Source: Bacteroidota bacterium
Lineage (GTDB): Bacteria; Bacteroidota; Ignavibacteria; SZUA-365
Assembly (NCBI GenBank): GCA_016928515.1
Contig: JAFGKR010000208.1
Span: forward strand, 1-40,872
Direction: 5' to 3'
DNA length: 40,872 nt
The notes under the pieces were generated by a model. The model had not been told where the DNA came from, ran no database searches, and was given only the letters and a program-made list of their open reading frames with translations. The position numbers and the translations under genes were made by a program. Numbering within the stretch: the stretch's first letter is position 1; each line of letters opens with the position of its first letter. Below are positions 11,611 through 40,264 of the stretch, in pieces.

Positions 11611-11641
11611 ATGGGAATGTGTTTTGATCCGTCATTCCCAT
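11611..11641. repeat. 9-bp inverted repeat at the permease stop codon
   Basis: ATGGGAATG (11611-11619) and CATTCCCAT (11633-11641) pair perfectly around a 13-base loop, and the right arm includes the TGA of the second permease. No T-run follows in either direction, so it would be a 3'-end hairpin or weak terminator at most. Confidence 0.4.
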
Positions 11642-12849
11642 CGTACCGCGTCGATTATTTCTACATTCCGTGCGCGGCGGGCCGGGAACCATGCTGCGAG
11701 CAGGCAGAGTCCGAACGTCCCGGCAACGATGAGTGCGATGTCCGGCAAGCGGATTTCCACCGGTATGGCGGGAATGATGAACATCGCATCGAGACGGAAC
11801 AATCCGAATTCCGCCTGCAGCCAGGTGATCAGCAGACCGATCACGAGACCGGCCGCGACACCGATGGCTCCGATCCAGACGCCCTCGATGAGGAAAAGAC
11901 GCTGAATCCTCCGCGACGGCATGCCGACCGTACGGAGAATGCCGATATCCCGTCGCTTCTCGAGCACGAGCATGGTCAGGGATGCCAGGATGTTGAAAAC
12001 CGCGACCGCAATAATGATTCCCAGTAAAATGAAGGCGCTCCAGCGCTCGATCGCCATGACGGAATACAGATCTCCGTGCAGATCATACCACGTCAGGACG
12101 TTCCACCCCGGTCCGATGGCCTCCTGCAGCGTGCGCTGCATCTGTTTGCTGTCGTCGATGTCCTCCAGCCGCAGCTCGAAACCGGTGATATGTCCCCTCA
12201 TGCGGAACAGCGTTTGAGCATCTTCGAGGGAAAGAAAGGCATACGCGCCGTCATAGACCTTGTTCTGGGACCGGTAGATCCCCGTGACCGGACAGCGCAG
12301 TACGGTCGGGGCTACGTACTGAGTGAGCATGTTCTCCATGCCGGCAGGACTGTACAGCAGCAGCGTGTCGCCAACCAGCACGCGGAGCTCATCCGCGAGG
12401 CCTTCCCCCAGCACGATGCCATTGTCCTGTGAGAAGCGGAAATCTCCGAGCACGATTTTTTCGCCGACACGCGATACCTCGGCCAGGCTGTCGGGAGGGA
12501 CGCCCTTGATCCAGACGAACTGCGAATTCCCGTTGACCATCGCCATGGCCTTGCGCTGGATGAAGGGAGACAGCCCTGTAATGCCATCCTTCTCGCGGAG
12601 CAGCGTACGCACCGCTTCCGCGTCCTTCCCCTCGCTGCGCGGAATGCGTTCCACCTTGAGATGCGGATCGAAATCCTGCAGGATGGACGTCACCAGTCCG
12701 TTGAATCCGTTGAACACCGACATCACGACGATCAATGCGGCAACACCGAACATGATCCCGAGCGTCGCGAGCAGCGAGATGATGTTGATGAAACTGAAGC
12801 GCTTTTTTCCGTACAGGTATCGGCGCGCGATGAAGGATTCTACGGTCAT
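11632..12849 (-). CDS. LolC/LolE-family lipoprotein-release permease (second copy)
   Basis: 405 residues with the LolC/E layout: an N-terminal membrane helix after SFIARRYLYGKKRFSFINIISLLATLGI, a periplasmic domain (~50-265: VFNGFNGLVTSILQDFDPHLKVE onward), then three C-terminal helices of the FtsX type (AFILLGIIIAVAVFNILASLTMLVLEKRRDIGILRTVG is the conserved coupling segment). It starts three bases after the stop of a paralogous permease, so translational coupling is likely. The two would form the heterodimeric membrane part of a Lol complex with the LolD ATPase downstream. Which copy plays the LolC or LolE role cannot be told by eye. Confidence 0.85.
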   Translation of the reverse strand: MTVESFIARRYLYGKKRFSFINIISLLATLGIMFGVAALIVVMSVFNGFNGLVTSILQDFDPHLKVERIPRSEGKDAEAVRTLLREKDGITGLSPFIQRKAMAMVNGNSQFVWIKGVPPDSLAEVSRVGEKIVLGDFRFSQDNGIVLGEGLADELRVLVGDTLLLYSPAGMENMLTQYVAPTVLRCPVTGIYRSQNKVYDGAYAFLSLEDAQTLFRMRGHITGFELRLEDIDDSKQMQRTLQEAIGPGWNVLTWYDLHGDLYSVMAIERWSAFILLGIIIAVAVFNILASLTMLVLEKRRDIGILRTVGMPSRRIQRLFLIEGVWIGAIGVAAGLVIGLLITWLQAEFGLFRLDAMFIIPAIPVEIRLPDIALIVAGTFGLCLLAAWFPARRARNVEIIDAVRWE

Positions 12850-12852
12850 GCG

Positions 12853-14067
12853 TCAGTGATAACGGATGGAACGGATAGGATCGAGCCGTGCGGCAAGCGC
12901 TGCGGGGATGAGGGATGACAACAGCGCGAGCAGCACACCCGCGGCGGAGACCCCTGCGAACACAGTCAGGGTCATGTGAATGGGCACGGTCGTCATGAAG
13001 TAAACATCCTGCGGCAGGCTGAAAAACTGTAATTCCTGCTGAGCCAAGCTGAACCCGAACGCGAGCGCCGCACCGATCAGTACTCCGGCCGTGCCGATGA
13101 AAACACCCTGCATCAGGAAAATGCGTCGGATATGCCGGCGCGATGCTCCCATGGCCAGCAGGATACCGATGTACGACGTTTTTTCGATGACGAAGAGCAG
13201 CAGCGTGGCGATCACGTTGAAGACGGAAATGACGATCAAGGAACCGACGACGATCGGGATCAGTTCCTGCTGCAGGTCGATCCAGACGAAAAGATGCCGG
13301 TAGAGCGAAAACACCGACCGTGGATCGTACGGGTAACCGATTTCTGTCTGTATGCGGTCGACCGTTTCCTCCACCGTCGCGACGTCCCGGCAAAGCACAT
13401 CATACCCGTTGATGCTACCGGGCAACCCGAAGGTCCGTTGTGCCGTTCCCAGCGAAGTGAAGACATAAATGTCATCGAGATACTCCGCCATACCGGTTTC
13501 ATAAATCCCACGGATCGTGCACTGCACTTTGGGAGCGTGATAGATGTCGGTGAAATCGGTGACGCCGAGCAACAGCATGCGGTCGCCGACGCGCAGGTTG
13601 AGCTTGTCGGCGAGGCGCTTCCCGATAACGATGGAGTGGCGATCATCCACGGGTCCCAGTGTATAGGATCCTGCGACAAGCTTGTCGGCGATGCGGGAGA
13701 GGTCCCGCGCGGAATCGAGTCCCTTTACCCGTACTCCTTCGATGTCGTCGCGAGTGACGACGAGCGCTTCGCGTTCGAGAAAGGGTCCTGCCTGCGCGAC
13801 GTTCTGCACGGCCCGGAGTTTCTTCAGCGTTGCGGGTTCGGCGGTCACGACACCGTTGCGAAACACGTTGACCTGGATATGCGCCGAAAAGCCGATGAGA
13901 TTGGAACGCAGCTCCCGCTCGAAGCCATCGAGGATGGTGAAGGCGATGATGAGTGCGGCGGTGCCGATGGCGACGCTGCCGATGGCGACAGCGGTCATGA
14001 AGGAAAGGAAACGGCTCAGATTCCGTTTCCGCAGGTAGCGCAGCGCTATGAAAGATGCAAAAGACAT
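12853..14067 (-). CDS. LolC/LolE-family lipoprotein-release permease (first copy)
   Basis: 404 residues, same architecture as the next gene: SFASFIALRYLRKRNLSRFLSFMTAVAIGSVAIG with the first helix, a periplasmic domain from about residue 50 (FTILDGFERELRSNLIGFSAHIQV), and C-terminal helices with LLLFVIEKTSYIGILLAMGASRRHIRRIF. It lies 21 bases downstream of prfB and 3 bases upstream of the second permease. Together with LolD it would extract outer-membrane lipoproteins from the inner membrane. The two permeases are clearly diverged, which fits a heterodimer better than a recent duplication. Confidence 0.85.
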   Translation of the reverse strand: MSFASFIALRYLRKRNLSRFLSFMTAVAIGSVAIGTAALIIAFTILDGFERELRSNLIGFSAHIQVNVFRNGVVTAEPATLKKLRAVQNVAQAGPFLEREALVVTRDDIEGVRVKGLDSARDLSRIADKLVAGSYTLGPVDDRHSIVIGKRLADKLNLRVGDRMLLLGVTDFTDIYHAPKVQCTIRGIYETGMAEYLDDIYVFTSLGTAQRTFGLPGSINGYDVLCRDVATVEETVDRIQTEIGYPYDPRSVFSLYRHLFVWIDLQQELIPIVVGSLIVISVFNVIATLLLFVIEKTSYIGILLAMGASRRHIRRIFLMQGVFIGTAGVLIGAALAFGFSLAQQELQFFSLPQDVYFMTTVPIHMTLTVFAGVSAAGVLLALLSSLIPAALAARLDPIRSIRYH

Positions 14068-24277: not shown

Positions 24278-27200
24278 TCAACGCAAAACGGTGATTCGCT
24301 GCAGCATGTGATCACTTTCACTGCGCAGGAGAACGAAATAGCTCCCCACATCCAGGGCTCCTGCATCGAAAATATATTCGTGCCTGCCTGCCGGGAGAAC
24401 GGCATGCAGCAGCACGGTGACTTCCCTCCCCTGCATGTCGGTGACGGAGAGCCGTACCGGGCGTTGCCGGTCCAGTGTGAATGCGAGCGTTGCCCTGCTG
24501 TGGACCGGATTCGGTACGGACGGAGCGAGTGTTATCCCTCCGTCACTGCGGATCAGTCGTCTCCCGTCCGCAAGGCAGTATCCCTCGAGCAAAAAGCGCC
24601 CGGCCTGCATTTCACGCACACGCACGGCAGGATGATCAAAGATGAATGCATCCGGTGTCAGTGCGGTGGCCGTGTCGTTCCCGACGAGAACCAGCAGATC
24701 GACGAACAACAACTCCCGGCCCTCCGCAAGCATCCCGCTGTCCGCGAGCACATGAACTGTTCCCGATGCCTGGTCATAGTCCCAGATCACACGCATTTGC
24801 GCGGAGGCCGATCCGACAGTCGCTGTCCCGAGCGGATACAGCATGCTCGGATTGAAACGCAGCTCTCCGGACCAACGGCGGATACCGAACCCGGACAGAT
24901 CCCGTGACAGCCGCAACGGTACGCGAATAGTGTCGTCCACCGTGCCACGCAATACCGCCGTACTCAGATCGAGGGCCTGCAGATCGCCATCGCCATGAAA
25001 GGAGACCGGGAGGGGCGAACGTACCACACAGGGTGCCGTCGCGTCCAGAAACAGGCTGTCGGTGATTGCGCCCTGGCGGTCAGGCGTGAAGGTCAGCCGC
25101 ACACGCAGACTGTCTCCCGGCGCTATCGCTGCCGGCAGTGGTGGAAGTGTTCCGATGACACGCAGGCGTGTGCCGCCGGGTACCACCTGTTCAACATGAA
25201 CCGCATACTGCGCGCGATTGAAGCCGCTGAATTCCGCCACGGGACTTTCATCACCGACCGGCATGCCCCCGAGAAAGACGGGATCGGGAAATTCGAGTCC
25301 ACCATCTCGCACGAATGCCCGAATCATGGAAGTGAAATCATATGTCTGCCCGTCCACGTGCACACGCACCGAGAGCGTAGCGGTCACCTCTCCCCGGTCT
25401 CCGGGTGCCGGCGTGAAATGCACCGGCAGCGTAACAGTCTCGCTCCAGAGCATCGGGAACGGCAGCGGCGCGTGATCGACGATGAAACGGTCGGCGAAGG
25501 GTCCGAGAAGAGAAATGCTTTCGATCAGAAGATCGGGGTCGGCATACGCCTGCATCGTCACGATGCCGCTGCGGGTTTCGCAGAACGGCAGTTCGCCAAG
25601 ATCGAGATCTGTCTGCGTGAAGAGTCGGACCGCCGTCCCCCGCACGATGATGCGCATGCTGTCGAGACAGGGTTCGAACACCATGTACAGCGTATCCTCG
25701 AAGGGGCCTTCGACCGTCGGACGGAAACTGATGCGGTACGTTTCCGGATGGCGCGGAAGCATGTCCTTCGGAACAGTGGGTCGAAGCAGGGAGTACTCCG
25801 GCGGGGCATGCAGCGCAACGAGTCGAAGGTGGGAGGTACCACTTTGCGAAAGCTGGCCGGTTATGAACACTTCATCACCGACCACCACCGGCCCTGTACC
25901 GCCCTGTTGGTCCGGCGGCGTCACCTGTGTTACGCGAACCCCACGCAGCGGCAGTTCGAGTACCGGCTGTTTCGGCACAGTCGTACTGACAAAGAACGAT
26001 GCCACGATGGGACCGTCGGTTTCAGCTGCCGGTGCAAAACGAACACGGAAACGGCGCTGCTGCCCTCCCTGAAGGGTCTCCACGCCGGTGACCGGATCAA
26101 GCATCGAAAAGGCCGCCGCGCCTGCGCCGCTGATCGTGCTCGACTGCAGTTCGATTGCCGAGTTGCCGGAATTCACAAGGCTCGCGAAAAGAACCTGATC
26201 CTGGCACTGCGCAAGAGAGTCGAAGCGCAGGTCCGGCTCTGCAAAAATGAGATCGCCGTCCACCCCCTGTCCTTCGAGAGCGATGCATATGGTGTCGGAA
26301 CACGGCTGATCGAAATACAGGCAGAGTGCGCCGAACACGCTCCCCACCGAATCGGGAAGGAAGCGGACGTCGATGTCCAGTACATCTCCGGTGTCGAGAG
26401 AAACCGGTTGTGCGAGTTCCGCGAAGAACGGTGGAGCGGGATCGATACCGACGGCAGCCAGATGTAATCCGTGCATGTCACGGTTCCGCACACGCAGGGT
26501 TCGTGTCTGACTCGTGCCGGCGACGACATTCGCGAAGAGCAGCGATGAAGGGGTCATGTCGAGATATGGCTCTGCAGATCGTCCGGTGAGCACGATATCA
26601 GTGATACGCTCACAGTGCCCGATGCGACTGCGCAGCGTCAGCACCGTGCTGTGCATACCGGGAGAGGAGGGCGCGTACAGAAGACGGAGCGCACCCATCC
26701 CTTGTGCGGGTACCTCCACGGGCAGACCGGTCAGAAGCGTGAATGCGGGATCGCCGATCAATACATCGGATATCGTGACCGGTATATCCGCGGTATTGAC
26801 GAGATCCCGGCTGAAAATGATTTCCGTCTTGCAGACGGGAATGTTCCCCGCGTCGATCGTATCGGGAAGCTGAAGCCCGCCGTCGTCTCTGAGCGCATGC
26901 AGCTGGACGACGGTCAGCGCGCCGCTGCTGCCGCGAAGCAACATCTCTCCACGTGTCTCCGTGCCTGCAGGCTTGCGGCTGCAGATGCGGAACAGGGCCG
27001 TGCCGCCCACATCGGTCGACGTGGCCGTATCCGGTGTCACAGAGAAAAATACGGGATTGTTGAGCACGGGCTCGATCGACTCGACTTCGCTGAGCATGTT
27101 TTTCACCAGCAGGGTGTCGCAGATCAGCGTATCGCAGAACAGATGCAGGAAAGACAGGGTATCCGCGTCGACGGCCAAAGCGCGGTCTTCGATCCGCATC

Positions 27201-30200
27201 CGCAGCGGGAAGCAGAGCGTATCCGGACACGGGGAAGACAGAACCACACACAGGTTTCCGGCCACCGTACCGGTATCCTTGAGTAGGCGGAAGCGAAATC
27301 CGGCCGGAACTATCGAATCCGGCGCGAGAGAGGCCGGCAGGGATGGGAGAGCGTCCATCTGCAACACCGAGGCAACGCCGGAGAGAAAGACGGTCTCGAC
27401 CTCCACTGCCAGTGTGTCGCTGTTCATCACGTAAACGACGATGTGTGACGTATCGGCTGTCGAGCGGATACCAAGATCCAGCGGATCCGGGAACACCGTC
27501 AACGCGGGATGAAAAACTCCCGCCGAAAACCGAAGGAGATACTGTACACTGCAGGGTTCGGTATTCACGCGCAGAACGATCGGCAGAACAGTATCGACCG
27601 GAACCGTCACCGATACATCGATCGGAAATTCTCCAGCCGGTGGCACCTCCGCAGCAACAGCGGCATGCCGCACAGACGTGAACGGCGCCCCCGCTTCGAG
27701 ACTGATGTCCGTTATCCGAAGAGGGGTGTCGTGGGGATTGCGGAAGACGAAGCGCCGGGTACCTTCCTCCCCGAGGCAGAGGGGGAGCGACGTCACCGTA
27801 TCACCGTCCAGCACCAGGGAACGCACATTCCGTCTCCCGATCAGACGAACCCGCGACTCCCCGAACACACTGGAATCGTCGTGGCTGAGCAGTAGGACCG
27901 CGCGACTGTCCTGGTTGGCGGGTGCGTCATAGAGCAGGACGAACTGCACCGCGGAATCCGGCGGCAAGGTCAGCGGCAGGCGGGGACGCAACAGCTGGAA
28001 ATGCGTCGGATGAAGACCGATCACTTCCGTGCGGCGCAGATGCAGTGGTTGCTGCCCGGCGTTGCGTACCTCTATGCTGTCGATGACCGGCGCTTCACAG
28101 ATCTGGTCGTCGAAACGCAGAGAATCGGGGATGAGGGCAAACGGCAATTCGGCGCTGAAGAGGAACACAGGCAGACGAAGCGTGTCAGGGCAGGGTGACG
28201 ACCAGGTGACATGCAGCCATGTCATGCTGCTGTCGGAACGCGGCGCCCGGTAGGCAACGACGACTTCGAGTTCGTCGCCGATGTCGCACTGCCGGGGGAA
28301 GCCGGTGGGTGAAAGTATCGTCAATCCATCGACCGGGGGATCGGTCCAGATCATCTCCACCGTCACATCATCATAGCCGCGATTCCGGAGAAACACACTC
28401 CTGCGCACCTCGATGTTCAACGGCACGGGCCCGATGACCAGCGCGGAATCGGGATCGGTTTGCAGAACGGCATCCTTCCCTCGACCGGTGCAGACGAAGT
28501 CGAGCGTATCGGGGCAGGGGCCGAGCACCAGTCGAAACAATGCCGCATGTGATATGGAATCCGCGCGAGTCGGTACGAAACGAACGGGGATCTTCAGCGT
28601 CCCGTCAGGTCCGATCCGCCTGGCAGTGTCGACGAGAACCGCAAAATCCGTCCTCCCCTCGGTCTGCAGCACTGTCGTTACCCGGCCGTCTGTATTTCCG
28701 GTATTGCGTAGCTCGACATATTCGATCCGGGCATCCCCGACGCAGACATCACCGAAAGCGATGTCGGGCGGAGCGATTTGCATGCGATTACTCTCGATGA
28801 ATCCCTCATAGGGGATCTGAATGAGCTCGGGGCAGTCCTCATGCCCCGCGAGCAGATGGATGCTCCCGAGAATGGGACCATCGAGACTGCTGGTCAATGA
28901 TACGCGAAGGGAATCGACGGCCGTGACACTGTCCCCGAGCAGGTGGGAGAGCAGTGTGACCGTACCCCGTGACCCGAGATCATCGATCCCCAGGATGCGC
29001 GGTGCCCTGTTGCCGTAAGTGGAAACCGGTAACACGAAAACGGCGGTATCCTTTCGGCAGACGGTGGGAAAGACGATGCGCGCCGCGCCGGGACGCAGTT
29101 CGTTGATGACGCGCATTCCCTCCAACGAGACGGTCCATGGCGTATGATCCGGATCGTTCGAGACGATATGCATCCGGCTGCCCACGGGGACCGGTCCGAA
29201 ATACGCGGCGTCCGGTTCCCAGCGGACGGTTACGAAACGGGTTTCTCCCGGGGGGATGACCAGAGGCCAGGTCGCCCCGCGCAATTCGAAATCCGCATTA
29301 CTGAACGTCACATCGCCCCGCTGAATCGTCAGATTTCCCGATCCCTTGTTCACAATGGAAAAAGAGCGATCCTTCCAGTCACCGCAGGCGAGCGTATCGA
29401 AAGAGAGAACGGATGACGTCGCAGAGATGTCGGGACGCTGTGTTCCGTTCCACTTATAGATCCAACCCTCCGAGACGCTGGGATAGCCCGACGTGCGTTG
29501 AATGCCGCCGACTGCCCAGCCCACGGCTTCGTTGAGAAAGATCATCTTGTTGAAGGGCTGATACGTCTTGTTGCCGAACACATTCGGATAGTAGCGATGC
29601 CAGCTCGATCCACCGTCAAAGGTGTAGGCAATTTCATTGTACGCACTGGCCACCCATCCCTTGAGGGAATCGAAGAAAAAGAGAGCTCGATGCGCACCGG
29701 GCGTTGAATTGAAAGTCGGTTGTGAAGGACTCGGAAACCAATCGACACCTCCATTCGTGGTGGTGATCAGATGGTTGCCGGTTCCCTGGTTGTACCCGTA
29801 GAGGAAGCCGCGGGTGTCGTCGACGAAGCTGATCTTCATATGGCTGCCGTACATCTCGATGGAGCCATTGAAGGAAAGATTGATCCACTTCTGATTCGAA
29901 GGATTGTAGCGGAAGAAAGCATTGTCCCCGCCCGCCACGATCCAGACCGATCCTGTGTACTTGACATCCGTCAACGCGGCGGTGACCGGGAGAGTGTAGT
30001 TGGTCCATGATACTCCCCCGTCCAGCGTGTGATGGACACGCCCGGGGCCCTCACCAACGATCATCCCTTCACGAACATCCTTGAAGGTCACTGCATAGCG
30101 GGTACCGTAGAGAATGGGATTCTGCGGAGAGACGCTGAACCAGGTGGAACCGTAATCCACCGTTTTATAGACAAGGCTGCGATAGTCGTCGCGCCACGAG

Positions 30201-30541
30201 ACAAAGGCGATGCCGGTATTCGGTACGGCGAAGACGTCCTGCGCCCACGATGTGAGCGCGATGTTCAGCGCGGGAGTAAAAGCCGACTGCGGCACCGGCT
30301 GCCATGTCGGATTCCCCGTCCGTTTCACGAGAACGCCCGTCTGTCCGAGCAGCACGTCCACATCCCCCACCGCGTACCCGTTCCCCGTATCGGCCATGGA
30401 AATTCCCATCAATCCGCGTACCGGAACGGCAATCGGTTGCTCCTTCCACGTTCCCACCGGCTGGGCCGGCAACACCGCGGACAGCAATGCGAGCAGGACA
30501 CAGATGAACAGAAGTTGTCGATGCAAGGAGCGATCACGCAA
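24278..30541 (-). CDS. Giant exported protein: beta-propeller, 14 choice-of-anchor-D modules, cohesin-like domain, likely T9SS tail
   Basis: About 2,087 residues from a TTG at 30541. The track's GTG at 30730 adds an implausible N-terminus, a second TTG lies at 30526, and no start has a good ribosome site. A signal peptide (HRQLLFICVLLALLSAVLPAQ) is followed by ~350 residues of YCF48/BNR-type propeller repeats (TTNGGVDW, FDGGSSWHRYYP). Then come 14 Ig-like modules of ~105 residues of the choice-of-anchor-D/ASH type (AFGDVCVGDARIEYVELRN), most with a Cys early in the module and another late (PCPDTL). A cohesin-like domain follows (LDLSTAVLRGTVDDTIRVPL). The C-terminus fits a T9SS type A sorting domain (APSVPNPVHSRATLAFTLDR ... 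QRITVLR). It should be displayed or released outside the outer membrane; the ligand is unknown. Confidence 0.8.
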   Translation of the reverse strand: MRDRSLHRQLLFICVLLALLSAVLPAQPVGTWKEQPIAVPVRGLMGISMADTGNGYAVGDVDVLLGQTGVLVKRTGNPTWQPVPQSAFTPALNIALTSWAQDVFAVPNTGIAFVSWRDDYRSLVYKTVDYGSTWFSVSPQNPILYGTRYAVTFKDVREGMIVGEGPGRVHHTLDGGVSWTNYTLPVTAALTDVKYTGSVWIVAGGDNAFFRYNPSNQKWINLSFNGSIEMYGSHMKISFVDDTRGFLYGYNQGTGNHLITTTNGGVDWFPSPSQPTFNSTPGAHRALFFFDSLKGWVASAYNEIAYTFDGGSSWHRYYPNVFGNKTYQPFNKMIFLNEAVGWAVGGIQRTSGYPSVSEGWIYKWNGTQRPDISATSSVLSFDTLACGDWKDRSFSIVNKGSGNLTIQRGDVTFSNADFELRGATWPLVIPPGETRFVTVRWEPDAAYFGPVPVGSRMHIVSNDPDHTPWTVSLEGMRVINELRPGAARIVFPTVCRKDTAVFVLPVSTYGNRAPRILGIDDLGSRGTVTLLSHLLGDSVTAVDSLRVSLTSSLDGPILGSIHLLAGHEDCPELIQIPYEGFIESNRMQIAPPDIAFGDVCVGDARIEYVELRNTGNTDGRVTTVLQTEGRTDFAVLVDTARRIGPDGTLKIPVRFVPTRADSISHAALFRLVLGPCPDTLDFVCTGRGKDAVLQTDPDSALVIGPVPLNIEVRRSVFLRNRGYDDVTVEMIWTDPPVDGLTILSPTGFPRQCDIGDELEVVVAYRAPRSDSSMTWLHVTWSSPCPDTLRLPVFLFSAELPFALIPDSLRFDDQICEAPVIDSIEVRNAGQQPLHLRRTEVIGLHPTHFQLLRPRLPLTLPPDSAVQFVLLYDAPANQDSRAVLLLSHDDSSVFGESRVRLIGRRNVRSLVLDGDTVTSLPLCLGEEGTRRFVFRNPHDTPLRITDISLEAGAPFTSVRHAAVAAEVPPAGEFPIDVSVTVPVDTVLPIVLRVNTEPCSVQYLLRFSAGVFHPALTVFPDPLDLGIRSTADTSHIVVYVMNSDTLAVEVETVFLSGVASVLQMDALPSLPASLAPDSIVPAGFRFRLLKDTGTVAGNLCVVLSSPCPDTLCFPLRMRIEDRALAVDADTLSFLHLFCDTLICDTLLVKNMLSEVESIEPVLNNPVFFSVTPDTATSTDVGGTALFRICSRKPAGTETRGEMLLRGSSGALTVVQLHALRDDGGLQLPDTIDAGNIPVCKTEIIFSRDLVNTADIPVTISDVLIGDPAFTLLTGLPVEVPAQGMGALRLLYAPSSPGMHSTVLTLRSRIGHCERITDIVLTGRSAEPYLDMTPSSLLFANVVAGTSQTRTLRVRNRDMHGLHLAAVGIDPAPPFFAELAQPVSLDTGDVLDIDVRFLPDSVGSVFGALCLYFDQPCSDTICIALEGQGVDGDLIFAEPDLRFDSLAQCQDQVLFASLVNSGNSAIELQSSTISGAGAAAFSMLDPVTGVETLQGGQQRRFRVRFAPAAETDGPIVASFFVSTTVPKQPVLELPLRGVRVTQVTPPDQQGGTGPVVVGDEVFITGQLSQSGTSHLRLVALHAPPEYSLLRPTVPKDMLPRHPETYRISFRPTVEGPFEDTLYMVFEPCLDSMRIIVRGTAVRLFTQTDLDLGELPFCETRSGIVTMQAYADPDLLIESISLLGPFADRFIVDHAPLPFPMLWSETVTLPVHFTPAPGDRGEVTATLSVRVHVDGQTYDFTSMIRAFVRDGGLEFPDPVFLGGMPVGDESPVAEFSGFNRAQYAVHVEQVVPGGTRLRVIGTLPPLPAAIAPGDSLRVRLTFTPDRQGAITDSLFLDATAPCVVRSPLPVSFHGDGDLQALDLSTAVLRGTVDDTIRVPLRLSRDLSGFGIRRWSGELRFNPSMLYPLGTATVGSASAQMRVIWDYDQASGTVHVLADSGMLAEGRELLFVDLLVLVGNDTATALTPDAFIFDHPAVRVREMQAGRFLLEGYCLADGRRLIRSDGGITLAPSVPNPVHSRATLAFTLDRQRPVRLSVTDMQGREVTVLLHAVLPAGRHEYIFDAGALDVGSYFVLLRSESDHMLQRITVLR

Positions 30542-30991
30542 GTGAATGAGAATGCCGGGAATCCGGACATTTCCTGCCCGGAAACACGAATGGAAATATT
30601 CGTTATGATACCGTAAAGACGCGTGAAAGACAAGAGTGGCTCTTTTCCGAAATCCACCCGGTACATCACCTCCGCCCTGCCCCACCAGTAGCCGTCGGCG
30701 GTGGACGAATTCGAAGCATCCGCGTACCACATGCGCTCAAGCAGTACGTGTCCTGAAAGCGGTCCTTCCGGAAGGAACTTCACCTCGGCGATGACCAAGC
30801 GTGCCCACGACGCGCGAATCCCCTTTCGGGATCACGCTCATGTGCGCGTTGCAAATATGCTGCAGCATCCCGCGAAGCACCATTTCCTTCACTAGCCGCC
30901 ATCAGAGCTGAAGATACGGTGCGAGGAGATTACTCCACTGCGCGATTCCTCCCCGCAACTGCATGAATATGCAGGTTCTGCAAGTCCGGTC
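30542..30991. other. 450-bp gap between two exported-protein genes
   Basis: No recognisable gene, RNA or terminator. A minus-strand ORF (track 30409-30798) crosses it. Its first ~70 codons (VIAEVKFLPEGPLSGHVLLE) have third positions richer in G/C than expected for random sequence, but the rest overlaps the signal peptide of the giant protein in another frame. It could be a gene remnant or chance. No consensus promoter was found for the giant gene in this gap. Confidence 0.4.
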
Positions 30992-33823
30992 TTACTCCCG
31001 CGGCGGCGGGGGCGGAAGCGGACGGACGTACGCGGCGGGGAGACGCAGCAGGGCATCCACTTCGGGGAGCTCACCGGGAGCGAAGGACTGCACGATCATC
31101 CGCAGAAGGGCCTCGGTGTTCACCTTGGCGAAATAGCCGCGGCCGGGACGAAGAACGCCGCCCTCCGGTTCGATGTACCCCAGCTCCGGATGATAATCGT
31201 AGATCGCGATGAGCGCTCCGGCGGGATCGGTCTGCACGGCGGCAAGTGGCACGGGACCGCTCGGTGCACCGATCAGGTTCCAGCCGCCGAATTCGTCCTC
31301 CATCATGACCTCCATCGCGGTGGTGTAGCTCCCGCTGACGACGATGGAATCCTCCCGTGAGAACTTGATCCAGTATCCCTTTCCGTATTCCAGTTCCTCC
31401 GCCTCGACATATCCCTTCTCAGGTACGTATTCATAGGCCTTTCCCTCCGCCGCAGGGAACAGATCCTCCACGCCGGAAGGAGACAACGGTAGCGGCAGCG
31501 AAATCAGGTTCCATCCTTGCGCGAAGCGGATGACGATATCGCCCTTCGCACGTTCGCTGATGAAATCCCAGTCCGTCTGATTGCCGGACAGACCACTGAC
31601 AGTGCGCGATGCCGGCGTAAAACTGAAGTACGGACTCGCCGGTGCGACGCTGTAGTCCCCCGGAACGAGCCCCGTTACGACATACTCACCGTTTTCGTCG
31701 GTAAAGGCCTCCGTCGACATCGTTCCGACGACGACCATGCGCACACCCTCCGCGGGGTTACCGGCCGTGCTCTTCACCTTTCCGGAGATTTCGTACGAGA
31801 CGGCCGGAACGACGTTGCAGACGACGTTGACCAGGATACCCGCATTCGCCGCGTTGCCGCCGATTGTGACGTTGTCACTGTATGTCCCGATCGATAACTG
31901 TGTATCCGTGATCTCGACGCGCACGGAGTCTTCATTGGATGTGCCGGATCCGGGTGTCAGATCGTACCACTGTGCGGAGGTTTTGGATGCAGTCCAGGAA
32001 AGAGTCTTTCCCCCCGTATTTCGCAGATGAATGTATTGCGCCTGAGGAGCCGGACCGTTCTGGTACACGGTGAACACGAGCTGACGCGGACGCACGTCAA
32101 GCACTGGCACCGGATCTTCGATGCTGAACGGCGCGCTCGCATCCTCGAGCATGATGGTAGACGGCGGCCGAATACGTACAACCGCATCATTGCTGACCGG
32201 GGGACCGGTGACCGTCCACTGGAAACCGCCGGCGTTCGCCGCAACAGACGGCGCGAGCACCTCAGAGAATGTTTTCCCTCCGTCACGTGACAGCTCGACG
32301 CGCAGATTCACGAGACCGGTGGCATTCCACTTGACGGTTTCGCTGTCGCCGATGTCCCAGCGCTCTCCGCCGGTGGGATGCAGCAGTGTGAGAGACGGAA
32401 GTGACGGAAGCGAGGATGCGTCGGCAAAATATGCTTGTGAGGATGTCCGGAAGCTGCCCGTGCCGTGCAGGCCGCTGCCCGAGCGGTCGAGGTCGTCGCC
32501 CTGGAAGCGGTAGACCGCGACGAGCCCGGCGGTCGGCCCTTCGAATTCCATCCGGTGATGATCTGCGATCTGGTCGTCGGTGCGTGCCGTGTTCCAGATG
32601 CGCACCTCGTCGATGGCACCGCTGTACCCGTAGGCCGTGGTGCCGGTGGACTGAACATCCGCTGAGCCAATCAGGAGTTCATCCTTGTTGCCACTGCCTG
32701 TCGTCGTGTAGGTCTGGGTCTGATCCGGAATACCATTGATGAAAATCGTGGCGATGGAGCCGTTACCGCTTCGTTCGAAGCGCGCGGCGACATGCGTCCA
32801 TGTGTTCAGGGACAGGGTGGCTTTACTTTCCAGGGGAAGCTGCCAGTTGCCGGTCGGCAGAAAGCGAACCCGCCCGTTGCTCTTGTTCAACCCGAGCCAG
32901 TAATTCCAGCGGTTCGCCGAATGCGAACCCTTGGTGAGGAAGGTCTGGAACTGTGCATGTCCGCCCGTGGCCGGTCGCACCCAACACTCCAGGGTAAAAT
33001 TCTGTGTCAACGTGAGTGCCGGATCATTCGGGATGGTGACATGGTCACCGCGATCGGGACCGTTTGTCACGATGAGGCTGATCCGCTGGTAATGCGGAGG
33101 ATCCGGTGTCTGTGCGTACGATACACTCCCGACGTTGCTGCCGTTGTGTCCTCCGACGGCGGCCAGTGCGTTGCCGTTCAGGCGCCAGGCCCCCTGCAGG
33201 AAGCGGCCGTGCAACCCGCCCGCCATCGCCCAGGGGATGCGGTACAGCAGACCGGCGGCGTTCGAGAAATCCACCACGGACCGCCAGATGCGCACTTCGT
33301 CGATTCCACCGGTCCAGTAATCCGCAGGACCGGCATTATCACGATCGGCCCCGATGCGGAGATCGAAATATCCGTAGCCGAGGTAGCTCTGTCCGGTTTT
33401 GATCTGCCGGTCGAGCGCGCCGTTGATGTAAAACTTCATTTCATTGCCGCTGGCGTCGAAGCTCACGCCGACATGCGTCCATGTATTCAGCGGAATCGTA
33501 CTGCTGCTCTCCTCGTGATACGCCGGATTCGGATAGAAACGAAGGCGGCGCTGTGGGGAAAGTCCGAACCAGTATGAGGACACGTTCCGGTCGTTTCCCA
33601 CAATGCACATGAGCTGTCCCGACTGCGTGGGTCGCACCCAGGCGTCGATGCTGATGGCGGCTGCCCGTGCGATATCGACGTTGAATGCGTCGTCGTAGGC
33701 AATGGACAGATAAGACGATCCGCCGAGCTGAAGCGATGCGTTTTCCGATTCGTACGGCTGTGCAGCGGTCGTGGATGCTGCCAGCAGACACAGGATGATC
33801 AGGAGGGAGCGTGTGCGTGTCAT
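30992..33823 (-). CDS. Exported LamG-domain protein without a sorting domain
   Basis: 943 residues. Signal peptide RSLLIILCLLAASTTAAQ, then two LamG-like jelly rolls (about 25-230 and 245-450; NTWTHVGVSFDASGNEMKFYINGA and NTWTHVAARFERSG). Next are an Ig-like GGERWDIGDSETVKWNATG module (~480-570), a BACON-type module (~580-670, LSWTASKTSAQWYDLTPGSG), a carboxypeptidase-regulatory-like fold (~675-760, YEISGKVKSTAGNPAEGV), and a tandem domain with GWNLISLPLPLSP ... YGKGYWIKF and GGWNLIGAPSG ... PGRGYFAKV (~770-905). LamG folds usually bind glycans or proteins. Unlike its neighbours it stops at LPPPPPRE with no T9SS sorting domain. It is probably co-transcribed with the 362- and 1,688-residue proteins upstream. 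Confidence 0.82.
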   Translation of the reverse strand: MTRTRSLLIILCLLAASTTAAQPYESENASLQLGGSSYLSIAYDDAFNVDIARAAAISIDAWVRPTQSGQLMCIVGNDRNVSSYWFGLSPQRRLRFYPNPAYHEESSSTIPLNTWTHVGVSFDASGNEMKFYINGALDRQIKTGQSYLGYGYFDLRIGADRDNAGPADYWTGGIDEVRIWRSVVDFSNAAGLLYRIPWAMAGGLHGRFLQGAWRLNGNALAAVGGHNGSNVGSVSYAQTPDPPHYQRISLIVTNGPDRGDHVTIPNDPALTLTQNFTLECWVRPATGGHAQFQTFLTKGSHSANRWNYWLGLNKSNGRVRFLPTGNWQLPLESKATLSLNTWTHVAARFERSGNGSIATIFINGIPDQTQTYTTTGSGNKDELLIGSADVQSTGTTAYGYSGAIDEVRIWNTARTDDQIADHHRMEFEGPTAGLVAVYRFQGDDLDRSGSGLHGTGSFRTSSQAYFADASSLPSLPSLTLLHPTGGERWDIGDSETVKWNATGLVNLRVELSRDGGKTFSEVLAPSVAANAGGFQWTVTGPPVSNDAVVRIRPPSTIMLEDASAPFSIEDPVPVLDVRPRQLVFTVYQNGPAPQAQYIHLRNTGGKTLSWTASKTSAQWYDLTPGSGTSNEDSVRVEITDTQLSIGTYSDNVTIGGNAANAGILVNVVCNVVPAVSYEISGKVKSTAGNPAEGVRMVVVGTMSTEAFTDENGEYVVTGLVPGDYSVAPASPYFSFTPASRTVSGLSGNQTDWDFISERAKGDIVIRFAQGWNLISLPLPLSPSGVEDLFPAAEGKAYEYVPEKGYVEAEELEYGKGYWIKFSREDSIVVSGSYTTAMEVMMEDEFGGWNLIGAPSGPVPLAAVQTDPAGALIAIYDYHPELGYIEPEGGVLRPGRGYFAKVNTEALLRMIVQSFAPGELPEVDALLRLPAAYVRPLPPPPPRE

Positions 33824-33909
33824 GATGTCCGTCTCGTATGGTGCGACAGGAAGCGCACATCCGCGGGAAAAGCCCCGCGGATGTGCTCGAAAGAAATCAG
33901 TGCTCTCAT

Positions 33910-34998
33910 TTACTTGACCAAAAGCATGCTGCGGCTGCGTTGGATGCCGCCGGATCGCAGGGTGTACATGTACACACCGCCCGAGAGCGGTCCCGCATCG
34001 ACACGAATGCTCTGCGGACCATCACGCTGTTGCAGCGCGTGCGTCAAATCCATCACCTCGACACCCAGCATATTATGCAGCGTGAGGGTAGCATCCCCGC
34101 GGAGAGCACCGCGGCCAAGATCCAGTTCGATGACGGTGGACGGGTTGAACGGATTCGGGTAGTTCTGTCCGATCCACATACCGTTGGCTGCCGGAACATC
34201 TGCAACACCCACCGTCATTTCCATGCGCACCGGAATATCCAGTTCAACATTGTACAGTTCGGAACGCATGATGATCATGGTCTCGTACGTTCCCGCCGGA
34301 AGACGTTGCGTGTTGACCGACACGACAACGGTCTGTTCTCCCTCGCCCGAGGCAGGCACGATATCCAGCCAGTCGGCCTCGGTGGAGAGCACCCAGGACG
34401 CATGCGTGTCGCCTTTCGGCGATACGACCAGATCCCGGGTGGGGAGAGGATCGCGGTTGTTCACCGCGAAGATGATGGGATTCGGTGTCGCTTCGAAGCT
34501 CAGTGGTGCCGGATTGAAGGTCGCTTCAACGACGAACTGGCCGGTGATGAACTGCGCCTCGATGCTCGACTTCCCGCTGACATCCTCCCCGTCGATCATC
34601 AGTTTCGTGATGCGTCCCGGGAGCGGATCCGGCCAACTGAGCGTCACGCCGGCGGCATTGAGACCGGCCTGATAGGAAACCGTATAGGTTTCCGTGTTGC
34701 TTGCCGTGGGATAGGCCCGGTAGTCGGAGAGAGACCCGAGTCCGAGCTGCGATTTTCCCGGCGTGCTGATCACGCGGGCGTCGAAGATTTCGTTGGGCGG
34801 CTGCGGAGGCAGCTCCGATTCGTCGAGGGTCGGATCGATCGCCGACGTGGCTCCTTCTCGTATACCGACGGCGAGGCGTTCCTTCCTCCCCTGTCCGTTA
34901 TCGACCATCAATTCAAGCGTGACGCCACGGTATTCCTGCGCGGCCGCGGATGCGGCCAGCAGCAGGAAACCGATGAAAAGGATACGTGTGTATTTCAT
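33910..34998 (-). CDS. T9SS-exported protein with BACON-like module
   Basis: 362 residues. Signal peptide (ILFIGFLLLAASAAAQ), a beta-rich region with the linker ELPPQPPNEIFDARV common in such proteins, a BACON/choice-of-anchor-like module (THASWVLSTEADWLDIVPASG ... LPAGTYETMIIM), and a textbook type A sorting domain: IGQNYPNPFNPSTVIELDL, LTLHNMLGVEVMDL, GGVYMYTLRSG, ending SRSMLLVK. The sorting domain directs passage through the type IX secretion pore and cleavage or anchoring. GAGGAG precedes the ATG. It lies 12 bases after the 1,688-residue gene. No enzymatic motif is visible; an adhesin or scaffold role is possible but unproven. Confidence 0.85.
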   Translation of the reverse strand: MKYTRILFIGFLLLAASAAAQEYRGVTLELMVDNGQGRKERLAVGIREGATSAIDPTLDESELPPQPPNEIFDARVISTPGKSQLGLGSLSDYRAYPTASNTETYTVSYQAGLNAAGVTLSWPDPLPGRITKLMIDGEDVSGKSSIEAQFITGQFVVEATFNPAPLSFEATPNPIIFAVNNRDPLPTRDLVVSPKGDTHASWVLSTEADWLDIVPASGEGEQTVVVSVNTQRLPAGTYETMIIMRSELYNVELDIPVRMEMTVGVADVPAANGMWIGQNYPNPFNPSTVIELDLGRGALRGDATLTLHNMLGVEVMDLTHALQQRDGPQSIRVDAGPLSGGVYMYTLRSGGIQRSRSMLLVK

Positions 34999-35010
34999 GA
35001 GTGTGCTCCT

Positions 35011-38000
35011 CTACTTGACTATCGTAAGTGTGCGCGAAACGACACCGGTCGCCGTCTCGAGACGGTATGTGTACATCCCGGCGGGAACCGCCGCGCCCGT
35101 GTCATCCATTCCGTCCCAGGTCACATACTTGCTGCCCTGAGACTGGCTACCACGCACCAACGCGCGGACCTGGCGGCCGAGCATATCGTATATCGTCAGG
35201 TGAACGGCACCCTCCTCTGACAGTGTGTACGGAATGACAGTGGACGACGTTGTCTGGAAGGGATTCGGATAATTGCTTCCCAGAACGACCTTCGCATCGG
35301 CAGGACGCACACGGGTATTCAGCTTCAGGACGCTGGTCCCGGTGACGTCGAGGATGAGATGGTCCCCTGCGGAGCCGTCGAACGTATGCAGGAGACGACC
35401 GTCTTCGTCGCGCACCTCGATCAGGATGCGATCGGATGAGACCGGCGTCGAGAGGACGCAGCGTCCCTGCCCGCCGACATGGACCGTCGTTTCTCCGGGA
35501 AAGACGAACTGCGTTCCCTCCGCGGTGCGCACATCGAGGATGTCCGCAGGCGGAGCGGCCGGCAGTGCCAGCACGTTGCGCAGTTCATCGGTCGCCCGGT
35601 CGCCGGCGACGTAGAGCCTTCGAGTGTGACCCTCGGCGTTCTCCAGCGTCAGCAGACCAGCCAGATCCATACCGGCAACCGCCTTGCTGTATGCCGTCGC
35701 ACCAGCACCGCTTCCGGTGAAACCGCTGGTGCTGATGCGGAGATTTGTTCCCGCATCGACACGTACCCAGTAGCCCTTGCCGGGTTCCATCTGCGTCGGC
35801 ACGATGTATCCCTGACCGGGATCCCACCCGAAGATGGACTTGAGTCCGCCGGCGGGATTCTGCTGGATGGACGCGACGGGTACCGGCTTGAGAAGGGCGC
35901 CGACCATGTTCCACCCGTAGCCGTACGGCTCACCGATGCCATTGAGCTCGGTCCATTCGAAGGTGGATTTCGAGAGTCCGATCAGTACCTCCTCCAGGGG
36001 ACCGGCTTTGATCCAGTAACCACGGCCGAGTACCATATCGCTTGCGGCGTCATATTGTCCCGCGTCGGTGTCGAACAGGTACATTTTCATATCCGGCTCC
36101 TGTGCCAGGGCGGCGAAGTCAGGATTCTGCAGCTCGAGCGGCGTGGAAACCATTTCCCAGTCTCCACTGGTACGGAAGACGAAGCGCTCGGGATCGCCCG
36201 TACCATCGGGGATGGGAGGATCGATCGGCACCCGTGTGGTGTCATCGACCTGGTCGTCGTCCTCGTTGTCGTTGATGACGACAATTTCGCGATCACGTTG
36301 TGGATCGTCCGGGTCACCGCAAAGTCGGAAGACCAGAATTGAGTCGCGCTGCACGATGTCGGTGATCTGTGTCGGTTTCATCGCACCGGTCGGCATGCGC
36401 TCCATCAGCTTGATGTTGAAGGGATTGTAGTACGGACGGGGATCGCCGGTCTGGCGGTCGCGCACTTTGAGTTTCAGGTCCACGCACGGCCAGTTCTTTG
36501 TATCCACGTCCTCGGTCGTGATGACGACTTCGTTTTCCTTGGTAGGTTCGGGACAGATCGGCTCCTTCACCTCAATGGTGAAGATATACCGTCCGTCGTT
36601 CGCGAAGGTGTAACTCGATGCCGATCGCATGTCGATGCTGCCGGGTTCACCCTGTATTTTCAAGGTAAAACTTGCGCTTGGAGAGGCCGGAAGCGCACCC
36701 CAGGTCATGGTCACCGGATTGGTCGGCCCGGTCTGCACCTGTCCCTGGAAGGTATGGGACGCCTTGATCGCGCGGATGTCGGTCAAGCTGCCCTGCGACC
36801 CGGGAATATTCAACCAGCGGATGTCGAACGCCGTCGGGGGCGGTGTCGGGGGCAGATCGGTCTGTCCCGCTTCGAGTCCGTCTCCGGCTCCTTCCTGCAT
36901 GCCGTACTCGAGTGTGATCTCATTCTGGCGTGCATTGCGGAAGAGAATCGCATGTTGCCATTTGCTCATCGGCTCGGGGACGCACGGCTTCTGCCGGTAA
37001 TACGCGATGAGCTTCTTGCTCTGCCACATCGTGACGGTCAGCGGATTAGTTGTCGTCGTCGTGTCACCGCCCCAGCCCACGAATTCAAATCCCGACGGCG
37101 CCGTGGCGGTTGCGGTCAGGGTCGAACCGACGGGGCCGGACTGACGATCGTCGAACGGACCGCCCGGTCCTTCCGGATTGATGACGACCAGTTCGGCCAG
37201 AGCGCTGCTGATGGGCTCGATGATCGGGAACACTTCGTACTCGCGTGCTTCGGTGTTCGGACCGATGTTCACCGCGGCCGGATTATCCCGCAGATTTCCG
37301 AAATCTCCTCCGAATCCCTGGAAGGAATAGCCCGGCGGCACCTGGTAATACATGTTGAACAGTAACGGGGTCGACTTGTCCACGCCCTTCGTGAACAGGT
37401 CGAACTTGGGATGCGGTCGCATGATGACCTGTCCCGGGAACGGTTGGACGAGGTGGAACTTCACGCAGTTCAGGCAGAGGTCCGGCAATTTGAAGCCGGG
37501 TTCGATCTGCTCACGCATGACTTCGATTTCGTATTCCCCGAAGGAGAAAAAGCCACCGTAGCGATTCACCAGATCGTTCCATGCACCGCCGGACACCTGC
37601 GATTCCACCTTGATGATGTACTCACCATCTGAGGTCAGGCGCAATGTATGCACGCCACCCAGAACGGTGGAGCTGGTATGCGTGGAGGTACCGGCACGCT
37701 GCGCGCGGAATTTCGGCTCGAAATCGGAGCCGTCCTTGACGCGCAGTTTCAGCACCAGTCGTTCACCGAACACATTCGGTGTGACGTTGATGACGGTCAC
37801 ACGGAAGTAATCCCACTGTGGTACGTTGAAGGAGAATTCTCCGACCAGCGGCTGCAGAGGGATCGCACCTTCAATGACATACGGATCCATTCCCGGACCG
37901 GAGGATGGCAGCAACTTCGGATTCGCGAGCGTCGCCGGTTCATTGGCGTCCACGCAGTACACGGTATCCACCGGGGTCGACGGACGCGTGGTAATGGATG

Positions 38001-40077
38001 CACTCTGCGAGGGTGTGCCGCGATTCGTATTGAACTCGCCCACGATACGGAACCTGTATGTGCGGTTGGACTGAATATCCGTCGATCCGCTACCCGTTGC
38101 GTTGGGTACTTTCAGGATCAGCACGCCGGTCCACTGCCCGATATTGACGCGGGTCGGCTTCCCGAGATGGTGATTCCCGTCGAGCTGCTTCCAGTTGCCC
38201 GGAGATGCCTCGTATTCGACGTATGTCTCCGCGGCATCCATGTCGAACTTGTTGCGCCACCGGAGTGCGACAGCCGGGGGCGGCGTGGCACTGCCACTGG
38301 CAGTGGCGAGATGCGCGGTAAGCGTGGTGTTGGCGGCAAAGATATCCGGAGGATTGCTGGTGTACACCGCCTTGACGTCGGTCACCGGATTGGAAAATGA
38401 GGACGGAAGCGAATACGATGGGAGTTCGTTCGCGTAATAATCGATTTCGGAAGTCGCTCCGCTTTTTCGTTTGATCTCCCAGTACGAAAAATACCACTTG
38501 GTGCCACTGCGTGTGAAATTCGACGGGGCGACGACACGGTGACAGTAGTCGAAGTCCACGGGTATGCCGATCGGTGTCGCGCGGTTCACCGTCTGAATGT
38601 TGTCGCAGTTGCGGAATTCCAGCGTGACATTCGTCGGCTGACTGGCGAACATACGCACCGGCACCGCCTGGCCTGCATTGATCACGCCCGTGTGCACTGG
38701 CGTAGCAAGGCTGTTACCGCTGATGTAATTCGTTTTCATGATGCCGTCCCAGCCACGCATGCTGCCGGACCGTCCATATGCCGGCTGCGTTGCCTGGCAA
38801 TTCACGTTCGGCATGCCGCGGTAGGACCATCCGCAGTTGTCATTCTTATACTCGTCTGGTGCTCCCCAGATATGCCCGATTTCATGCGCAATAACGTTGC
38901 GACGCGGTGCGGAAAATGGATCGAGCTCCGCCTGCCAGTACTGCGTATCCATGGCGAAATACACACCCTCCCGGTCGCCGTTGCCCCAGCGGATCACTGC
39001 CGCATGCGGCCAGATGCCTTCGTCGCCGGACGGTTTGTAGGCGATGAAACCGCAGATGGCCTCGTCGGAATTGAAGGCATCCCGTACCTGATTGTTGTAG
39101 AACCAGCACCATTCATAACCGGGACCCGCCCAGCTCCATGAGGGCGGCAGATTGAAGATGTTGATGGTCGCCAGCTTGGAGACGATCTGGGGAATGAAGG
39201 AATCCTCCCCGATGGCGACCGGTTCACCGGAAACCTGTGACGCCGTGTGGTACGGGGAATAGAGCCGCCAGTGATGCGTGATGGATTTGCCGTAGCGGGC
39301 GACGAAGGAAGACCAGTAGTTCATTGCCGCGATGTAGAAATTGCGGTAGCGGCTGTAGACCGTGGGATCCCAGTTCCATGTCCCGGTCCCGGATTTGCTC
39401 TCGACAAAAAAGCTGGAATGGACGATATAGCCGCGGACTTTCGTCCGCCGCAGCAATGCGTTCTCCGACGGATCGTGCGTCGGAATGCCCTGGATCACCG
39501 CACGCGGCGAGTGCTCGTCGGTCTCCACGAGACCGACACAGTCCATTTCGGGACGAATCTTGAGCTGCTCCTCGATTTCCTTTTCCCGCTCCCGGATGCG
39601 AAGCATATCTTCCTCGGTCAGCGGCCGCTTGATGAAGTCGAGATACTCGACAATCGCTTCATCGGCCTCGCTGACGTCGGCCATGATCCGGTACTGCTGT
39701 TGATCCAGATCGCGCTGGAATTCCGCACTGGAATAGGAAACGGACAGGACGCCGACCGGCTCACCGTTTGCCATCTGCAGTTGCGTGCCCATGATGGCGT
39801 CCTTGCTCTCTGGGGGCACCCATGCCAGCATGCGCTGCGGTGAGGTGATGATAGAGACCAGTGCTCCGTTCCGGACCAGTGCGTCGCGAAGGTCGATGGC
39901 CTGGTCCACGGACGTGCAGTTCGTCTGCAGCACGGCGAGATGCTGGTTGTGCGCCGCAAGTCCGACCTCGGCGGCGTCGGGTGGAACGTATCCCGGCTGC
40001 GGCGCCTGCGCGGAAGCAGTCACAGCGAGGACGAAACAGGCGAGCAGCGTCAACTGCAGGCGTATCCAGTGTTTCAT
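35011..40077 (-). CDS. T9SS-exported multidomain metalloprotease with metzincin-type zinc site
   Basis: 1,688 residues; AAGGA seven bases before the ATG. Signal peptide to about residue 24 (LTLLACFVLAVTASAQ), a probable propeptide (~25-205), then a catalytic region with zinc motif HEIGHIWGAPDEY: His398, Glu399, His402 and probable third ligand Asp408. The later SGSMRGWDGIMK (Met440/Met447) could supply the Met-turn. Downstream are Ig/fibronectin-like modules, a repeat-like segment (SGFEFVGWGGDTTTTTNPLTV), and two GWNMVG/GKGYW-type domains shared with the 943-residue neighbour. The C-terminus is a type A sorting domain (LGSNYPNPFQTTSSTVIPYTL ... GMYTYRLETATG ... RTLTIVK). It should be secreted across the outer membrane as a zinc protease. 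Cys pairs in the catalytic region suit disulfides. Substrate unknown. Confidence 0.85.
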   Translation of the reverse strand: MKHWIRLQLTLLACFVLAVTASAQAPQPGYVPPDAAEVGLAAHNQHLAVLQTNCTSVDQAIDLRDALVRNGALVSIITSPQRMLAWVPPESKDAIMGTQLQMANGEPVGVLSVSYSSAEFQRDLDQQQYRIMADVSEADEAIVEYLDFIKRPLTEEDMLRIREREKEIEEQLKIRPEMDCVGLVETDEHSPRAVIQGIPTHDPSENALLRRTKVRGYIVHSSFFVESKSGTGTWNWDPTVYSRYRNFYIAAMNYWSSFVARYGKSITHHWRLYSPYHTASQVSGEPVAIGEDSFIPQIVSKLATINIFNLPPSWSWAGPGYEWCWFYNNQVRDAFNSDEAICGFIAYKPSGDEGIWPHAAVIRWGNGDREGVYFAMDTQYWQAELDPFSAPRRNVIAHEIGHIWGAPDEYKNDNCGWSYRGMPNVNCQATQPAYGRSGSMRGWDGIMKTNYISGNSLATPVHTGVINAGQAVPVRMFASQPTNVTLEFRNCDNIQTVNRATPIGIPVDFDYCHRVVAPSNFTRSGTKWYFSYWEIKRKSGATSEIDYYANELPSYSLPSSFSNPVTDVKAVYTSNPPDIFAANTTLTAHLATASGSATPPPAVALRWRNKFDMDAAETYVEYEASPGNWKQLDGNHHLGKPTRVNIGQWTGVLILKVPNATGSGSTDIQSNRTYRFRIVGEFNTNRGTPSQSASITTRPSTPVDTVYCVDANEPATLANPKLLPSSGPGMDPYVIEGAIPLQPLVGEFSFNVPQWDYFRVTVINVTPNVFGERLVLKLRVKDGSDFEPKFRAQRAGTSTHTSSTVLGGVHTLRLTSDGEYIIKVESQVSGGAWNDLVNRYGGFFSFGEYEIEVMREQIEPGFKLPDLCLNCVKFHLVQPFPGQVIMRPHPKFDLFTKGVDKSTPLLFNMYYQVPPGYSFQGFGGDFGNLRDNPAAVNIGPNTEAREYEVFPIIEPISSALAELVVINPEGPGGPFDDRQSGPVGSTLTATATAPSGFEFVGWGGDTTTTTNPLTVTMWQSKKLIAYYRQKPCVPEPMSKWQHAILFRNARQNEITLEYGMQEGAGDGLEAGQTDLPPTPPPTAFDIRWLNIPGSQGSLTDIRAIKASHTFQGQVQTGPTNPVTMTWGALPASPSASFTLKIQGEPGSIDMRSASSYTFANDGRYIFTIEVKEPICPEPTKENEVVITTEDVDTKNWPCVDLKLKVRDRQTGDPRPYYNPFNIKLMERMPTGAMKPTQITDIVQRDSILVFRLCGDPDDPQRDREIVVINDNEDDDQVDDTTRVPIDPPIPDGTGDPERFVFRTSGDWEMVSTPLELQNPDFAALAQEPDMKMYLFDTDAGQYDAASDMVLGRGYWIKAGPLEEVLIGLSKSTFEWTELNGIGEPYGYGWNMVGALLKPVPVASIQQNPAGGLKSIFGWDPGQGYIVPTQMEPGKGYWVRVDAGTNLRISTSGFTGSGAGATAYSKAVAGMDLAGLLTLENAEGHTRRLYVAGDRATDELRNVLALPAAPPADILDVRTAEGTQFVFPGETTVHVGGQGRCVLSTPVSSDRILIEVRDEDGRLLHTFDGSAGDHLILDVTGTSVLKLNTRVRPADAKVVLGSNYPNPFQTTSSTVIPYTLSEEGAVHLTIYDMLGRQVRALVRGSQSQGSKYVTWDGMDDTGAAVPAGMYTYRLETATGVVSRTLTIVK

Positions 40078-40235: not shown

Positions 40236-40264
40236 AGTATACTAATTCAGATCAACATTGTCAA
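40236..40264 (-). promoter_or_regulatory. Near-consensus sigma70-like promoter of the metalloprotease gene run
   Basis: Minus strand TTGACA (40264-40259), 17 bases, TATACT (40241-40236). Placed to give a leader of about 150 bases before the 1,688-residue gene, and likely to serve the two short-gapped exported-protein genes after it. The surrounding 279-base divergent gap is AT-richer than the genes. Confidence 0.75.

Follow-up and report, generated by a model that had tools for sequence, protein, structure and literature searches.

Mirolysin and cytophagalysin are T9SS metzincins of the lower pappalysins (M43). Both carry an N-terminal prosegment and an HExxHxxGxxH/D zinc motif, and in cytophagalysin Ig-like domains are present at the C terminus as well (PMC11674741). 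Snapalysin (M7) is a metzincin of only 132–134 residues, whose motif is HExxHxxGxPD. In the PUL, surface glycan-binding proteins such as the LamG3 protein BT3986 and the BACON proteins carry LamG or BACON-like domains, are exported and are encoded in gene clusters (PMC11216935). The cip-cel operon, which codes for the cellulosome, is an example of an operon for exported proteins whose stoichiometry is set by stem-loops, through selective RNA processing and stabilization (SRPS) (PMC4423207).

The locus that we describe here is a real, conserved and apparently undescribed gene unit built from such familiar parts; our literature searches returned no description of it. It is located in a stretch of 40,872 nucleotides from a Bacteroidota genome (the window, by which we mean the whole of the DNA analysed), where the list of open reading frames and domain searches define gene A (35011..40077, 1688 aa), gene B (33910..34998, 362 aa) and gene C (30992..33823, 943 aa). 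All three genes, and all the features of the locus whose coordinates are given below, are on the minus strand. The gaps are 12 nt between A and B and 86 nt between B and C, as the initial annotation of the window had described from the open reading frames. That annotation spoke of a three-gene run: the genes are confirmed, but the run is longer than described, since a porin relic and a gene for a Hydin-like protein follow downstream. It did not mention four elements discussed below: the module common to A and B, the B–C hairpin, the second (paralogous) operon and the relic of the porin gene.

Gene order had been named beforehand as the test that could refute the proposal, and a lack of conservation is excluded: the order A–B–C is found in 19 further operons, that is 20 operons in 14 genomes when that of the window is included, from two families of one uncultured Bacteroidota order. 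A and B are adjacent in 22 of the 23 loci where the contig permits judgement and C comes next in 20 of 22 (in three of these 20 cases the contig ends within C), which supports the view that an exported protease and two partners are encoded as one conserved gene unit. The window's own genome contains a second A–B–C run (contig C184), 42–45% identical to the first. Trees built for the three proteins are congruent, with the clades type I, type II, f3 and G005/G007 recurring in each, so the A–B–C block has been duplicated as a whole.

In the window's family A is found at full length, and in the second family of the order it is found as such or as long fragments; the protease domain is present in 15 of the 15 genomes of the two families. 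It was not found in the one sampled genome of the third family of this order, and among 376 other genomes of the class it occurs in a single distant solo gene (L136). In a sample of the phylum (396 genomes), the only match is the window's own genome. The public records are MAGs labelled Ignavibacteria, Bacteroidetes or Chlorobiota. What was an isolated observation is now a defined gene family, with the operon, or at least gene A, in every sampled genome of two families, where it has been duplicated and retained.

There are exceptions to the three-gene arrangement. The second copy in G008 consists of A and B without C; the same is true of a locus in G004 (contig C292), where a FISUMP-like protein, recognised by inspection, is encoded next. 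Conversely, G009 has a solo C (G009:C2). In G011 (C53, L041), two A genes are in tandem at a contig end, with no B between them, and in the low-completeness MAG G014 (L052:5875-10927), A is split into three open reading frames in different frames, as a result of either pseudogene formation or assembly errors.

The protein A consists of a signal peptide, an alpha/beta N-terminal domain that may be a prodomain, a metzincin protease, an InlB-B repeat, a domain shared with B (the A–B domain), a tandem GWN domain and a type-A T9SS tail. The N-terminal domain (residues 24–130, 39688..40008), a putative propeptide, is modelled with a pLDDT of about 90, and its elements follow each other in the order E-H-E-E-H-E; from this topology we infer a propeptide-type alpha/beta unit. 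In L136, a solo relative from the class, the protease also has a comparable stretch ahead of it.

The zinc motif of A, HEIGHIWGAPDEY (residues 398–410, 38848..38886), follows the metzincin pattern HExxHxxGxPD, which is invariant in 22 homologues of A, as are the individual residues H398, E399, H402, G405, P407, D408, E409, Y410 and Met447. In a wider alignment of 17 rows, the positions of the motif vary little, with the exception of the second G. Met447, which we assign to the Met-turn from its position in the sequence alone, is invariant in both alignments, and the key residues of the motif and this methionine are kept down to 25% identity. A has every catalytic residue expected of a metzincin; it is a metzincin by motif and fits no curated family. 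The naming of A as a protease and of B as a BACON protein rests on motif conservation and profile searches, and both assignments remain below the curated cut-offs of Pfam.

Around the active site, the model of the catalytic domain has a pLDDT mostly between 50 and 75, and when this middling-confidence model is used in a fold search, the top matches are the metzincins TACE and ADAMTS, with E-values of 0.02–0.4, and there is no match at E ≤ 0.001. Against the NCBIfam model of snapalysin, A scores 15.8 bits for a cut-off of 300, and it has no match to M7 in Pfam. Like mirolysin and cytophagalysin, A would be an exported metalloprotease with a motif of the HExxHxxGxxH/D type and a (putative) N-terminal prosegment; unlike them, it has Asp as the third ligand (PDEY), has no match to the pappalysin M43 family of Pfam and comes with two conserved partner genes. 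Among solved structures, snapalysin is the closest to A: the profile built from the wider family retrieves it (1c7k and 4hx3) at E = 2e-6, followed by weak matches to ADAM10 and others. Snapalysin has the same HExxHxxGxPD motif as A, which is however a far longer protein and remains below the cut-offs of the M7 models.

This wider family has the signature AHExxHxxGxPDEY...NxNC...M and members in Actinomycetota, Pseudomonadota, Acidobacteriota, Chloroflexota, Cyanobacteriota and Nitrospirota (phyla assigned from the titles of the records and general taxonomy). Several of the members that we scanned (L076–L123) have the protease joined to repeats, either BTRD1 or beta-propeller-lectin (CV39L/BP39L type). 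These lectin-fused metzincins, from Frankia, Streptomyces, Sphingomonas and others, have the signature in common with A, but they carry protease and lectin repeats in one chain, whereas in our locus a separate protein, C, bears the LamG domains. Judging from these profile matches, A is part of an unnamed metzincin branch that spans several phyla, is nearest to snapalysin and lies below all the curated family cut-offs that we consulted. The comparison exposes this branch, to which repeats of carbohydrate-binding type have been joined in several lineages.

Regarding export, Sec signal peptides are recognised by inspection on A, B and C. The two sorting tails predicted in the initial annotation are those of A (35023..35271, 37.7 bits) and B (33931..34161, 25.5 bits), both above the cut-off of 23 bits of the NCBIfam model TIGR04183; no T9SS tail was found in C with this model. 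The tails of A and B should be usable, since the window's genome encodes PorU (944 bits) and SprA (above cut-off). The tail of B matches some 80 other proteins of this genome. The predicted mature N termini of A, B and C all begin with Gln (ASA|Q, AAA|Q and TAA|Q), a residue that is invariant in B and almost invariant in C; this pattern fits the Q-rule described in Bacteroidetes (PMC5837995).

The protein B consists of a signal peptide, the A–B domain, a BACON-like domain and the T9SS tail, of type A; in C, the signal peptide is followed by two LamG domains, a BACON-like domain, a CarboxypepD_reg domain, the GWN tandem and a proline-rich C terminus. The A–B domain, of 125 residues, spans residues 1043–1171 of A (36565..36951) and 29–160 of B (34519..34914), with an hhalign probability of 99 and E = 2.3e-18 between the two. 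Four of its five copies in the window's genome are in A or B. The GWN tandem that was said to be common to two of the proteins is indeed shared, by A (residues 1299–1453, 35719..36183) and C (residues 763–914, 31082..31537, modelled with a pLDDT of 91), with a BLASTP E-value of 4e-19. All four copies in the window's genome are in A or C, so the tandem is nearly specific to these genes there, but it is not exclusive to them in the class, another family of which has 13–14 copies per genome. The idea that it is a unique assembly module is weakened by this abundance. When its model is compared with the PDB, the matches are mainly due to the neighbouring domain of CarboxypepD_reg type.

The BACON-like domain of B (34210..34521) is common with C (hhalign probability 97.7, E = 2e-12), and neither protein reaches the BACON cut-off of Pfam, 25 bits (18.1 and 14.5 bits for B, 21.7 for C). 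A search of PDB profiles with that of B gives a match (E = 9.5e-4) to the N-terminal region of 3zmr, a GH5 protein. The LamG assignment of C is certain: Laminin_G_3 (PF13385) is matched with 168.9 bits over two stretches, the second LamG being at 32564..33052, for a cut-off of 27.6 bits. Each pair of proteins is therefore linked by a different module, the A–B domain, the GWN tandem (A and C) or the BACON-like domain (B and C), and this pairwise sharing is suggestive of assembly. As for the C terminus of C, PLPPPPPRE (30995..31021), such ends are seen only in C among the open reading frames of at least 250 aa in the loci that we read; the C proteins of several lineages end in 5–6 prolines and those of type II do not. 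We discarded the idea of a general sorting tail, since the feature is confined to C proteins and is missing in type II.

The near-consensus promoter reported ahead of the trio is borne out. It is of sigma-70 type, TTGACA-N17-TATACT (40236..40264), and matches the consensus at 11 of 12 positions. In the comparison of the type I orthologues whose upstream sequence is complete, a TTGACA-17-TATACT/TATTAT element with 11/12 matches is found 183–216 nt above A in the window and in six orthologues, and versions with 10/12 matches lie above both copies of G008. Of the shuffled versions of the 330-nt upstream region, no more than 0.4% contain an 11/12 match. Across the whole region, promoter-like sites are not in excess over shuffles, and it is the conservation of the element in type I orthologues, whereas the flanking sequence has diverged, that leads us to reject a chance match.

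The gap between B and C contains an RNA stem-loop of about 14 pairs (33853..33888). A strong stem-loop is present in 19 of the 20 B–C gaps, with a mean z of −3.9 with respect to dinucleotide shuffles; the hairpin is weak in G013 only, and the stems of G006 and G014 exceed, by inspection, the count given by our script. Its sequence differs between lineages. The type I hairpins are too diverged to be aligned as a set, and covariation was therefore tested on five type II gaps: all cells pair (55/55) and 3 of the 11 pairs have changed on both sides, in a compensatory manner, whereas only 38–49% of the cells pair when the register is slid in the same gaps. Among 37 co-directional gaps of 25–300 nt, six reach the same hairpin score, four of which are B–C gaps. 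A hairpin also follows C in two type II operons (L063 and L070), and Rfam gives no match to the hairpin at E ≤ 1. The number of T after the stem is irregular (0–7 of 10), so that the hairpin would be a leaky terminator at best; alternatively, it may stabilise the 3' end, as the stem-loops of cip-cel do (PMC4423207). Like cip-cel, the trio encodes exported proteins and has a strong, stable stem-loop between two genes, where the upstream one ends, as is found in SRPS operons; Pfam recognises no cohesin or dockerin in it. Conserved by structure rather than by sequence, within an operon for exported proteins, this hairpin is a testable case.

We argue that the locus is an operon for a T9SS-displayed metalloprotease together with two accessory proteins dedicated to it, and that a single transcript gives all three, in a ratio adjusted by the hairpin; we give this reading a probability of about 0.55. 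Since the trio has been kept together, promoter and hairpin included, its products probably form one surface machine that degrades a protein target. In the mechanism that we propose, A, B and C would come from a single transcript, and the hairpin would either shield the A–B part or halt some of the polymerases, so that less C is made. A would be exported as a zymogen with its N-terminal prodomain. A and B would then cross the outer membrane via the T9SS and remain at the surface, and C, which has no tail, would stay in the periplasm or the outer membrane, or exit by another route. C could hold A, B or the substrate by means of its LamG and GWN domains. The target would be a protein or glycoprotein outside the cell that serves as food or belongs to a matrix. 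In type I operons, an AlgE-like porin may once have completed the set, before it decayed in the window's genome.

The proteolysis may even be guided by glycans, which is plausible given that BT3986 holds glycans at the cell surface (PMC11216935). The trio resembles the PUL in its LamG and BACON-like domains, but its enzyme is a protease, and no SusC/SusD pair or glycoside hydrolase is recognised among the adjacent genes examined. It may also be that C and A–B never meet, because C has no T9SS tail, and that the GWN tandem is a mere stalk, because T9SS proteins of other families often carry it. Not all LamG and BACON domains bind sugars.

A bolder version of the same idea is that A, B and C form an obligate proteolytic complex at the surface, held together by the pairwise-shared domains, with a stoichiometry set by the hairpin, as core equipment of the two families and as the split counterpart of the single-chain lectin-fused metzincins; we consider it tentative and rather doubtful. 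We find it unlikely that the three proteins act separately at the surface and are merely co-expressed for the same growth condition, their common modules being ordinary stalks of the exported proteins of the class. GWN tandems are plentiful in the T9SS proteins of family f13, the tail of B is of a widespread type, and one solo C and two A–B pairs without C exist, all of which would fit separate action; but in the window's genome the GWN tandem and the A–B domain are nearly confined to these genes, and the trio stayed together through duplications.

The lack of a T9SS tail on C, which has a signal peptide and may stay on the inner side, and its GWN module, which in A is located before the tail, could also mean that C (perhaps B too) serves in the periplasm as a dedicated chaperone or inhibitor and silences the protease before export, or else that it is a substrate processed by A; the system would then be a protease with a partner for maturation or immunity, and not a complex that binds a target. 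This is quite improbable in our opinion, considering that A has its own N-terminal domain of propeptide type (in the model), that some A–B pairs do without C and that LamG domains are not known to act as protease inhibitors. Even less probable is the existence of two transcription units, in which the B–C hairpin would terminate A–B and C would be transcribed separately. A strong GC hairpin follows B in 19 of 20 operons, in some cases with 6–7 T in the next 10 bases, and comparable hairpins are found at convergent gene ends; however, most stems have no T run, a scan of the window region detects no terminator-like site on the minus strand, and in most operons the 14–55 nt from the stem to the start of C are too short for a promoter below the hairpin. 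An operon with dedicated accessory proteins is the reading that we retain, and it offers A–B–C as an example on which the idea of a T9SS enzyme with partners of its own can be tested.

Downstream of C, the window contains the relic of a fourth gene, which coded for an outer-membrane barrel of Alginate_exp type (30655..30964; tblastn E = 2e-17 with the intact gene of G001); the N-terminal three quarters are gone and the remaining pieces are in different frames. A porin-like (AlgE-like) gene follows C in six type I relatives: that of G001 is above the Alginate_exp cut-off and the others were placed by homology to it, the G002 member having no Pfam match of its own. With the relic in the window and the absence of the gene at the same place in G010, the porin has been lost at least twice. 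Most of the sampled genomes have another Alginate_exp porin elsewhere. The next gene, D (24278..30730, 2150 codons), codes for a Hydin/choice-of-anchor D protein with a YCF48-like propeller, according to domain searches, and its T9SS tail only scores below the cut-off. Its start is uncertain and is probably further in, since the longest reading overlaps the porin relic. Gene D is also downstream in G001, G002, G006 and G010.

Last, we note three features of the rest of the window. A TMEM260-like protein O-mannosyltransferase (190 bits) is encoded at 7549-10362 on the minus strand and a GT87 glycosyltransferase at 5231-6529; O-glycosylation of exported proteins is a possible function of these genes. 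Two adjoining genes for permeases of MacB/FtsX type, 3 nt apart, are found at 11632-12849 and 12853-14067 (minus strand).
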